Assembly (NCBI RefSeq): GCF_001440395.1
Contig: NZ_LLXZ01000194.1
Coordinates: forward strand, 1-64,000
Length of the DNA: 64,000 bases
Direction: 5' to 3'
DNA from: Bradyrhizobium jicamae
GTDB taxonomy: Bacteria; Pseudomonadota; Alphaproteobacteria; Rhizobiales; Xanthobacteraceae
The position numbers and the translations under genes were made by a program. Below are positions 35,591 through 59,096 of the stretch, piece after piece. Below the pieces are notes generated by a model, which had not been told where the DNA came from, ran no database searches, and was given only the letters and a program-made list of their open reading frames with translations. Positions within the stretch are counted from its first letter, which is position 1. Each line of letters starts with the position of its first letter.

Positions 35591-35679
35591 ACCATTAACT
35601 ATGGCACAACACTCGTGCCCCGGGCCAAACCGGACGGGGTGAGCCCCGTTGCTCAAACCTGAGGATGGAGAGACCCCCA

Positions 35680-36156
35680 ATGACCACCGAAACCAATTCC
35701 GTGCTGAACACCGTCAAGGAAGCCTTCGCCCCCGTCACCGAGGCGTTCACCAAGCTCCAGAACCTGGAAGTTCCGGAAGCCGCCCGTGAGTTCGTGAAGA
35801 AGCAGGCCGAGACCGCGAAGGTTCGCGCTGCCGACTTCCATGCCGGTTCCGAGAAGGTCACTGCTGCCGTCGAGACCGCCGTTGCCGGTTCGGTCGCCGA
35901 GGCCGCCAAGATCAGCCGCAACATCCAGCAGGCGCTGTACCAGGACGCGGAAGCGTTCTTCGCCGGCATCGACAAGCTCGCTTCGGCCAAGTCGCTGAGC
36001 GAAGCCGCCCAGATCCAGTCGGACCTGGTCCGTGCGCGTGGCGAAGTGCTCGTGTCGCGGGCGAAGGCCTCCACCGAGTATCTCGGCAAGCTCGTCGCCG
36101 ACGGTGCCAAGACCGCGCAGGACAATTTCTCCAAGGTCTATTCCAAGACCGCCTGA
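35680..36156 (+). CDS. Phasin family protein
   Basis: A 158-residue amphipathic helical protein that coats PHA granules. The phasin pattern is visible: VTEAFTKLQNLEVPEAAREFVKK early and EAFFAGIDKLASAKSLSEAAQIQ in the middle, ending in a helical Lys/Ala tail. ATG 35680 is preferred over a start five codons upstream. The upstream gap carries two palindromes and a terminator follows, so it is its own transcription unit next to phaC. Confidence 0.9.
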   Translation: MTTETNSVLNTVKEAFAPVTEAFTKLQNLEVPEAAREFVKKQAETAKVRAADFHAGSEKVTAAVETAVAGSVAEAAKISRNIQQALYQDAEAFFAGIDKLASAKSLSEAAQIQSDLVRARGEVLVSRAKASTEYLGKLVADGAKTAQDNFSKVYSKTA

Positions 36157-36185
36157 TCGCGATCCGCTGACAACTGTCCAATTCG

Positions 36186-36212
36186 AAGGCCCGCCTAGCG
36201 GGCCTTCTTTTT
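36186..36212 (+). terminator. Rho-independent terminator after the phasin gene
   Basis: AAGGCCCGC, CTA loop, GCGGGCCTT (9-bp perfect stem) followed by CTTTTT, 29 bp past the stop. Confidence 0.92.
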
Positions 36213-36249
36213 GTCGGGGGTCGGCATAGATCAATGCTGCATCCTCCTG

Positions 36250-36365
36250 CGTCATTGCCTGCGACAAACGCGAAGCGTTTGCGCAAGGGAGCGAAGCGAC
36301 GAAGCAATCCACCTCAGCTTTCCGCCCGCGGTGAGGTGGATTGCTTCGCTGCGCTCGCAATGACG
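36250..36365. repeat. Palindromic intergenic repeat, family C, copy 1
   Basis: Bounded by CGTCATTGC/GCAATGACG. The inner parts pair GGGAGCGAAGCGACGAAGCAATCC with GGATTGCTTCGCTGCGCTCGC, and an inner hairpin AAACGCGAAGCGTTT lies on the left arm. Other copies are at 53785 and 56110. Confidence 0.85.
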
Positions 36366-36406
36366 GAGTAGGCTGACGCAGGCGCGAATCTCCTTCGAAA
36401 GCCGTC

Positions 36407-37693
36407 ATGACGCTTCCCGCCACCTTCGTCATCGATACGCCCGGCGACGCCGCGCGCGCCGCCGAATTGCGGCGCGTGAAGTTGCTGGCGACGGGGGTGC
36501 TTGCGGCGACGTTTGTCGTTTTCCTTGGCGCGAAGGCGTTGGTGCCGGTACATCCGGTATTCGGCTTCATCGCAGCTTTTGCCGAGGCGGCGACCATCGG
36601 CGGTCTCGCCGACTGGTACGCCGTGGTCGCGCTGTTCAAACGGCCGCTGGGCCTGCCGATCCCGCACACTGCGATCATCCAGAGCAACCAGCACCGTATC
36701 GCCGACAAGCTTGGCGAATTCATCGAACAGCATTTCCTGGAAGCCGCGCCCGTCGAAGCCAAGCTGCGGGAGATCGATTTCGGTTCGTTCATCGCCGACT
36801 GGCTGCGCGACCGCAAACGCAGCGAGGATCTCGCGCGCTTTGCGCTGCGGCTGCTGCCCGAAGCGGTAGCCGCGACCGAGAACTCGGGGCTGATGACCTT
36901 CGTCAGCCGCCGCATCACCGCGCAACTGATGGCGATCGATCTGGCGCCGCTGGCCGCCGGCACCTTGCGTACCTTCGTGAAGGAGGGCCGCCATCAGGGC
37001 CTGCTCGACGATCTCCTGCGCGGCGTGCATGAGACGATGACGCAGGCCGAGACCATGGCGATGATCCGCGAGAAGATCCGCGCCGAATTGCCGACGCTCT
37101 TGAAGCTCTATCGCGCCGACAAGTTTCTGGTGAACAAGATCGTGGCTTCCGCCACCGCCTTCTTCGAGGAAGTCCGCAACGATCCCGCGCATCCGTTCCG
37201 CGGCGAGTTCGACCGGATGGTGCTGACCTTCGTCGATCGCCTCGGCACCGATCCGGTATATGCCGAGAAGATCGCCGGCCTGAAGCGCGACCTGCTGGCG
37301 CGTCCCGAACTGACCGGTCTTGCACGCCACATCTGGGCGAACGTGCGCTCCTTCTTCGAGCGCAGCGCCTCCGGCGAAACGCAGGTACTGGAACAGTATC
37401 TCGTGCGCATGTTCGTAACAGCAGGCGAGGCCTTGGCCAGCGACGCCGAACTGCGCGCCGAAATCAACCAGGGTCTCGTCGCGGTGCTGCGCACGGTCGT
37501 TGCCGAACAGAAGAGTGGCGTCTCCACCTTCATCTCCGACCAGGTCAAGTCGTGGGACATGGGGCAGCTGATCTCGCTCATCGAGATCAACATCGGCCGC
37601 GACCTGCAATACATCCGCTTCAACGGCTCGCTGATCGGCGGGCTTGCGGGGCTGGCGCTCTACACGCTCGAATACCTGCTGCGGCTGCTGTGA
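36407..37693 (+). CDS. DUF445 family membrane protein
   Basis: A 428-residue protein with an N-terminal membrane segment (LLATGVLAATFVVFLGAKAL) and a second, GFIAAFAEAATIGGLADWYAVVALF, the DUF445 signature, followed by GLPIPHTAIIQSNQHRIADKLGEFI. A long helical cytoplasmic or periplasmic region ends with a C-terminal helix (GLAGLALYTLEYLLRLL). The family function is unknown. It lies between a family C repeat and a hydrolase paralog. No ribosome site is obvious before ATG 36407. Confidence 0.88.
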   Translation: MTLPATFVIDTPGDAARAAELRRVKLLATGVLAATFVVFLGAKALVPVHPVFGFIAAFAEAATIGGLADWYAVVALFKRPLGLPIPHTAIIQSNQHRIADKLGEFIEQHFLEAAPVEAKLREIDFGSFIADWLRDRKRSEDLARFALRLLPEAVAATENSGLMTFVSRRITAQLMAIDLAPLAAGTLRTFVKEGRHQGLLDDLLRGVHETMTQAETMAMIREKIRAELPTLLKLYRADKFLVNKIVASATAFFEEVRNDPAHPFRGEFDRMVLTFVDRLGTDPVYAEKIAGLKRDLLARPELTGLARHIWANVRSFFERSASGETQVLEQYLVRMFVTAGEALASDAELRAEINQGLVAVLRTVVAEQKSGVSTFISDQVKSWDMGQLISLIEINIGRDLQYIRFNGSLIGGLAGLALYTLEYLLRLL

Positions 37694-52821: not shown

Positions 52822-52925
52822 TTCGATAACTCCCGTTTCGGTTTTTCTTGACCGCAGATGGTGCTGTAGAACATTTTCCGGCAAAGTGGAAACGCACCCA
52901 CGTTGTGGCCGACCGGAGATATTGC

Positions 52926-53777
52926 ATGACGACACTGTTTTCCGCGCTGGACTGGCGCTCCCTGAGCCGGGAGGCGCTCGACCTCGGCCTCAATAACGGC
53001 GTCGCCGTATCAGGCAGCGTCGAGATGGTGGCCGGCTGAGAACAGCGCTCCGCCGACATGCGCAAGCGTTTTCCCGGGCATATCGACCTGCGATCTGGTC
53101 CGCGCGAGCGCAACCGGATCGACTTCCTGAAAGCCGCCGACAACGCGCCGACGCTGTTGTTCATTCACGGCGGCTACTGGCAGGCGCGGGCGAAGGAAGT
53201 CTTCACTGTCGTGGCGGAAGGGCCGATGGCGCATGGCATCAATGTCGCGCTGATCGGCTACACGCTGGCGCCGGAGGCTGCGCTCGACGAGATCGTCGCC
53301 GAAATCCACGCCGGTATCGATTACCTCACCGGGCAATTGCCGACGCTTGGCGCCGCTGCTGGAAGCATCGTGGTATCGGGCTGGTCTGCCGGCGGCCACC
53401 TGACCTCGATGGCGTTGTCGCATCCGAAGGTGAGGGCGGGCATGGCCATATCAGGCATCTACGATCTCGAACCGATCCGACACTCCTATCTCAATGAGAA
53501 GCTCAGGGCGGATGAGGCAACCTCGCGCCGCAACTCGCCGATGATGCAGGAGGACGGGTCGCCAAAGCCGCTCTCACTGGTCGTCGGCAGCGCCGAGCTG
53601 CCGCTGCTGCGCAAGCAGACCGCCGATTTCGCCGGCCACCGCGCGCGATATGGCTTGCCGGTGACGTATGAGGAAATCACCGGCGCTGATCATTTCACCA
53701 TCATGTACGAGATGATGTCGCCGAAGGGCAGGATCACGACGCTGATCCGGCAGTTGTTTGAGCGGACGACGGGCTAG
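52926..53777 (+). pseudogene. Arylformamidase-like alpha/beta hydrolase with in-frame TGA
   Basis: GGAG lies 7 nt before ATG 52926. The first 37 codons (MTTLFSALDWRSLS to VEMVAG) are followed by TGA (53037-53039), then the same frame continues with EQRSADMRKRF without a shift. The natural residue at this point would be Trp (TGG), so this looks like a one-base nonsense change. The rest has the arylformamidase motif HGGYWQ, the nucleophile elbow GWSAGGH, and GADHF with the His. Reinitiation at ATG 53058 could still make 239 residues with all catalytic parts. A sequencing error is possible. Confidence 0.75.
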
Positions 53778-58448: not shown

Positions 58449-59096
58449 CTACACGTACGATTTCCGCGCCGGATCGAAGATCGGCGGATAGTCATTCTTG
58501 TCCAGCAGATCCAAGAACGTGTCGAGCCCCTCATTCCTGATCAGCTCATACTCGCGGTCGGAGATCAGGTTGACGGTCAGGATTTCCACCGGATCCCCCG
58601 CGATCGAAAGCTGCTCTGCGATGCGCTGGTCAGGGGTGATGATCGGCGTGAGGAACAGGAAGGTCTTGAAGTCCGTGCCTCGGACAGGCGGTGCCGGCAT
58701 GGGCACACGGTGCCCGAACCCGAACCAGGTGTTGTCGATGAACGGCACCGACGCGAGCCAGCGCAGGTTGCTGCAAATCTCCGTTGTTCCCTCGCGGACG
58801 TACCACATCAGCTCGGCGCGCGCCTTTGCCTCCGTCGCCTGAGGCGGCACGGCCATGCGCTGCTCGCTCATGCCGTTGGTCAGGAGCACGTAGCCCTCGT
58901 CCGAGCCCTCTTCGCAATCCGGCACGAAATCCCGGCCGAAGGCGTGCACATCGATGCGGCGGTCACCGGGGTCGCGGGAGGTGAATTCGGGTTCGTCGAG
59001 TTCGCCCTGGTAGATGGCCAGCCGCCGTTTGTAGGGATCGGCGGCGTCTGCGGGCTGACCTCGATCGAACAGCGAATTCATGAAACGTGACAGCAT
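58449..59096 (-). CDS. Suppressor-of-fused (SUFU) domain protein
   Basis: A 215-residue protein whose core (SVPFIDNTWFGFGHRVPM, FLFLTPIITPDQRIA, ILTVNLISDREYELI) matches the SUFU domain. Bacterial SUFU proteins are often immunity proteins in polymorphic toxin systems, but no toxin gene is adjacent here. ATG 59096 was taken; ATG 59081 is possible. The neighbours (CBS protein and hydroxyacid dehydrogenase) are metabolic, so the role is unknown. Confidence 0.82.
   Translation of the reverse strand: MLSRFMNSLFDRGQPADAADPYKRRLAIYQGELDEPEFTSRDPGDRRIDVHAFGRDFVPDCEEGSDEGYVLLTNGMSEQRMAVPPQATEAKARAELMWYVREGTTEICSNLRWLASVPFIDNTWFGFGHRVPMPAPPVRGTDFKTFLFLTPIITPDQRIAEQLSIAGDPVEILTVNLISDREYELIRNEGLDTFLDLLDKNDYPPIFDPARKSYV

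Follow-up and report, generated by a model that had tools for sequence, protein, structure and literature searches.

The closest described relatives of the gene examined here are serine hydrolases with the alpha/beta-hydrolase fold. HaHSL of Halocynthiibacter arcticus has the motifs GxSAGGxL and HGG and a Ser-Glu-His triad, according to the part of its description consulted (PMC6921082). The closest solved structure is that of Lipase 1 from Pseudomonas chlororaphis PA23 (PDB 9n8r), with an E value of 8.5e-50 by sequence. More distant in sequence, at 19-21% identity, but with the same fold is the kynurenine formamidase of Drosophila (PDB 4e11/4e14/4e15); enzymes of this eukaryote type are serine hydrolases, as stated in the consulted part of PMC4243253.

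The stretch of DNA analysed, 64,000 nucleotides that we call the window, lies in a 128-kb contig of a draft Bradyrhizobium genome (8.73 Mb in 235 contigs). It contains a gene for an HSL-type hydrolase with a single in-frame TGA (Table 1), flanked by genes for an amidase, an SDR protein, a tartrate dehydrogenase and an MFS transporter. The start codon at 52926 has GGAG seven bases before it and is followed by 37 sense codons and then the TGA (53037-53039), after which the frame runs on unchanged, with no frameshift, to a TAG at 53775-53777. This arrangement had been described in the initial annotation with the right coordinates. The motifs HGGYW (residues 81-85) and GWSAGG (152-157) both lie past the TGA, and an in-frame internal ATG starts 18 bases after it. 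The interrupted frame is not a chance one, since frames that are open in related genomes match it over its whole length and carry TGG in place of the stop in 101 of 104 copies. We consider it highly probable that a once intact HSL-type hydrolase gene has been inactivated in the lineage of this strain by one substitution, which changed Trp codon 38 to TGA.

Table 1. Features of the interrupted hydrolase gene in the window
Feature	Position	Strand	Evidence
HSL-type alpha/beta-hydrolase (esterase-like) gene with one in-frame TGA, probable pseudogene	52926..53777	+	frame reading, Pfam, NCBIfam, structures, genus alignment
GGAG, probable Shine-Dalgarno sequence for the ATG at 52926	52915..52918	+	read by eye
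N-terminal segment (codons 1-37), conserved, with D19 and N24 constant in the family	52926..53036	+	alignment, predicted structure
In-frame TGA, codon 38; TGG aligned here in 101 of 104 genus copies	53037..53039	+	
Frame from the internal ATG (Met45), 239 aa, lacking a Shine-Dalgarno sequence, D19 and N24	53058..53777	+	
Codon of the presumed catalytic Ser154 within GWSAGG; presumed partners Glu224 and His256	53385..53387	+	

Both BD-FAE and Abhydrolase_3 of Pfam match the hydrolase protein above their cut-offs. With the TGA read as W, the best NCBIfam match is to NF058665 (HSL-type, HaHSL), over residues 21-272 with 150.2 bits. The protein has the marks of the HSL type: GxSAGG as GWSAGG, HGG within HGGYW, and a Ser-Glu/Asp-His triad as S154, E224 and H256, the triad being mapped to HaHSL by the order of the residues in the consulted part of PMC6921082. 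These three residues are invariant in all 45 aligned sequences (the window and 44 of 80 loci from wider relatives). While the motifs GxSAGGxL and HGG and the Ser-Glu-His triad are shared with HaHSL, as far as the consulted part of its description goes (PMC6921082), the NF058665 score is under half the equivalog cut-off of 320 bits, and the intact orthologue of B. lablabi CCBAU 23086 (L037), the best named relative match, reaches 155.7 bits. The structure of the hydrolase was predicted with a mean pLDDT of 91. In the fold search it was closest to Lipase 1 (TM 0.91, 37% identity), followed by 2pbl (0.83) and the Drosophila kynurenine formamidase (0.75-0.78). The match to Lipase 1 starts at residue 8 and so includes the N-terminal segment, though Lipase 1 has a Leu in place of Trp38. 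The window gene would be best called an HSL-type esterase.

The initial annotation had called the gene arylformamidase-like. This holds only at the level of the fold, and the protein does combine an alpha/beta-hydrolase fold with HGGxW, a motif that we take to mark the kynurenine formamidase family, but its closest structures are those of HSL-like esterases, the best matches being Lipase 1 and 2pbl, with kynurenine formamidase behind them. Arylformamidase is therefore probably the wrong name for it. Neither a tryptophan 2,3-dioxygenase nor a kynureninase gene, which would be supporting rather than strictly defining, was found among its neighbours. Both enzymes score above their cut-offs elsewhere in the genome, on contig C3, and it is an intact paralogue there (L002 1174-2193; G000:C3:65277-66296, + strand; 33% identical), not the window gene, that the tryptophan-catabolism genes (L268, L269) adjoin. 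The zinc-type KynB (TIGR03035) was absent from the NCBIfam matches of the window protein at E<=0.001, and its best score genome-wide was 72.9 bits against a cut-off of 223, a weakly controlled result as none of 14 control genomes passed. The paralogue on C3 is likely to be an arylformamidase of the serine-hydrolase type, and is a better candidate than the window gene because it adjoins kynureninase and tryptophan dioxygenase. For annotation, the name arylformamidase would be better sought at this paralogue.

To place the stop among orthologues, the 265 genomes of the genus were searched with the read-through protein at E<=1e-75, a threshold that loses short remnants such as that in G044, where only query residues 135-245 were matched. 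The search gave 104 matches in 102 genomes, and all 104 copies (the one in the window, 29 loci and 74 further stretches) were read at the DNA level. The initial annotation had proposed a recent TGG-to-TGA change or a sequencing error and called for an alignment with orthologues. Codon 38 is TGG in 101 of the copies, TGC in one (G024), unaligned in one (G080) and TGA in the window copy only, so that a single substitution separates the window from the rule of the genus. In G080 the DNA itself reads TGG, and a base is missing in codon 40. The copy in G197 (L127) reads TGG and Tyr57 if the last aligned piece is counted, and GCA and Ser57 if the first is; its in-frame piece reads Trp at 38 and Tyr at 57. 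In a first, smaller comparison all 29 relatives had TGG. Among 80 loci of wider relatives, position 38 is W in 49, F in 14, R in 14, L in one, C in one and unaligned in one. Trp38 is thus nearly constant across the genus, yet it is not a catalytic residue, since the wider family has Phe, Arg, Leu or Cys at this position.

The DNA of G023 and G113 is mostly 90-95% identical to the window. The hydrolase frames of the two nearest relatives are intact, each with 58 differences from the window in 849 nt, which supports the view that the change is recent. The gene therefore has the disabling change against intact orthologues, TGA against TGG, that is expected of a pseudogene. Where five close copies agree, the private codon changes of the window number six synonymous and two non-synonymous, the stop being one of the latter. 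At the amino-acid level, among six close copies, the window has four private changes (the stop, Y57S, G210D and P252T), its two nearest relatives have two and none, and the other three have 3, 4 and 10; this is at most a hint of relaxation. Private changes at constant columns, counted over 99 copies (the other five of the 104 being four frame-broken copies and one cut by a contig end), number one in 18 copies, the window with its Y57S included, two in one copy and none in 80. Since these private-change counts give no clear sign of long decay of the window gene, loss of function would be indicated by the stop alone, and an error in base calling would look the same.

Such an error in the consensus of the draft, with the gene intact in the organism, is the alternative that survives best, though we regard it as improbable. 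The TGA is a lone substitution in an otherwise constrained frame, and the assembly is a draft of 235 contigs, as would suit an error; against this, substitution errors are rare in the consensus of short-read assemblies. Stops in the window were also surveyed against conserved frames of at least 150 aa with at least 95% identity over their last two thirds. Of 49 such frames from G113, two have an internal stop in the window, the hydrolase gene and a gene at the window edge, and the stop in the latter sits in an N-terminal stretch of lower conservation (identity is 88% ahead of the stop and 99% behind it). Among 48 conserved frames from G023 there is a single one with a stop, 158 aa long and interrupted at alignment column 10, which is probably a matter of the start site. 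That the G023 frames with a stop do not include the hydrolase gene is probably due to its mechanical ORF in that genome being joined to a frame upstream. A looser survey gave 35 frames of G113 or G023 with stops in the window; those not named here were removed by the rules on length, identity and overlap. The survey was confined to conserved frames; a greedy-ORF survey was dominated by antisense shadow frames. As there is no other clear mid-gene stop among the 49 frames of G113, the window consensus does not look error-rich, and a real mutation appears well ahead of a base-call error.

If the substitution is real, translation from the normal ATG would yield a 37-residue peptide and then stop. 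The initial annotation had suggested that a shorter enzyme may still be made from the internal ATG, by what would be reinitiation past the TGA. The position of this ATG, in frame and close behind the stop, is favourable, and its product would keep the presumed catalytic S154, E224 and H256, as had been claimed. However, no Shine-Dalgarno sequence was seen by eye before it, and residue 45 is Met in no more than 46 of the 103 other genus copies and in 13 of the 80 wider relatives. The product would also lose D19 and N24, which every one of the 103 other genus copies and of the 80 wider relatives has, together with the modelled helices before residue 45 (15-21, 24-27 and most of 31-48), a segment that is present in the sequences of the two closest solved structures too. 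A working enzyme from Met45 is thus unlikely, judging by conservation and the model, and we would give very little credence to a functional product made in this way. Nor is the internal ATG the true start: orthologues that all begin there had been named as evidence against an interrupted gene, and the upstream ATG is present in all 103 other genus copies, 102 by alignment and one (L183, where the alignment starts at residue 7 and the DNA has the ATG) by codon reading. With a restart that would be weak and a product lacking the conserved N-terminal segment, little or no working enzyme would be expected from the gene inactivated at codon 38. In annotation, the frame is best given as one disrupted gene rather than as a 239-residue enzyme.

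While the hydrolase gene is found in 102 of the 265 genomes of the genus, a query with the neighbouring tartrate dehydrogenase matched 262 of 265 at E<=1e-90, a number to which paralogues may add. As a control for broken copies this neighbour is weak, its best E value among the matches listed being under 1e-233 in 257 of the 262 genomes; the other five genomes have 80-95% completeness, and paralogues are counted throughout. Four other genus copies of the hydrolase gene (L125, L126, L127 and L128) are frame-broken by four different indels, at codon 40 in G080, at different bases near codons 73-75 in G041 and G197, and near codon 103 in G260, all four within the first 104 codons. Some of these frameshifts may be sequencing errors in drafts; the genome of G260 is a single contig. 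With this patchy distribution and independent lesions in four other copies, the likeliest reading is that the gene is accessory and dispensable, carried by a minority of Bradyrhizobium genomes and independently broken elsewhere. The case is then an ordinary example of accessory-gene loss. That the 104 copies carry five different lesions, none of them beyond codon 104, might instead reflect a repeated, selected on/off breakage in Bradyrhizobium. Some niches would then favour loss of the gene, or a product that is shortened or made at a low level by readthrough, and the cause would not be neutral decay; we think this a long shot.

The weakest alternative is readthrough of the TGA or its recoding, as Trp or selenocysteine. 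UGA is the leakiest of the stop codons, and in the wider family residues other than Trp are tolerated at position 38, so that leaky readthrough could give an active protein as the residue is non-essential there; Cys itself occurs at this position in G024 of the genus and in one wider relative (L112). However, with Cys in one of 103 other genus copies and one of 80 wider relatives, Trp is the rule of the genus, and the orthologous column is not one of Cys or Sec as in selenoproteins. Neither a SelB nor a genuine tRNA-Sec was found in the genome: the best SelB match, a 400-residue frame that would fit EF-Tu, scores 182 bits, below the cut-off of 242 (passed in two of 14 control genomes), and a tRNA-Ser is the sole match above the cut-off for tRNA-Sec. 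The three tRNA-Trp genes found share the anticodon CCA. A suppressor tRNA-Trp of the Hirsh type has an A in the D stem, where the standard tRNA-Trp here has G. Applied to the loci of the 30 top-scoring tRNA matches and to stretches spanning the other 41 of 71, ARAGORN gave a tRNA whose type is unclear for one stretch (L263) and no tRNA for another (L264). No suppressor anticodon was seen among the scored tRNA candidates, the scoring having covered 150 of 166 first-look candidates, so that a tRNA among the rest would be missed. On the SelB, tRNA-Sec and tRNA-gene searches, recoding as Sec or Trp was rejected, and readthrough of any kind is hardly credible here.

The tRNA searches also brought up a 6-kb stretch (L245, G000:C49:113800-119800) with 25 tRNA genes on one strand, many of them low-scoring and one a tRNA-Trp. 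Mobile elements and phages are known to carry arrays of this kind. At L201 (G000:C214:2549-2619, - strand) there is another tRNA-Trp (CCA), which is divergent and has an unusual D stem.

Elsewhere in the window, a 436-codon open frame on the reverse strand (35653-36963) corresponds, in each of the two nearest relatives, to two halves that do not share a frame; a Pfam search with it gave no matches, and it may be a shadow frame. A gene with a Suppressor-of-fused (SUFU) domain is found at 58449-59096, also on the reverse strand.
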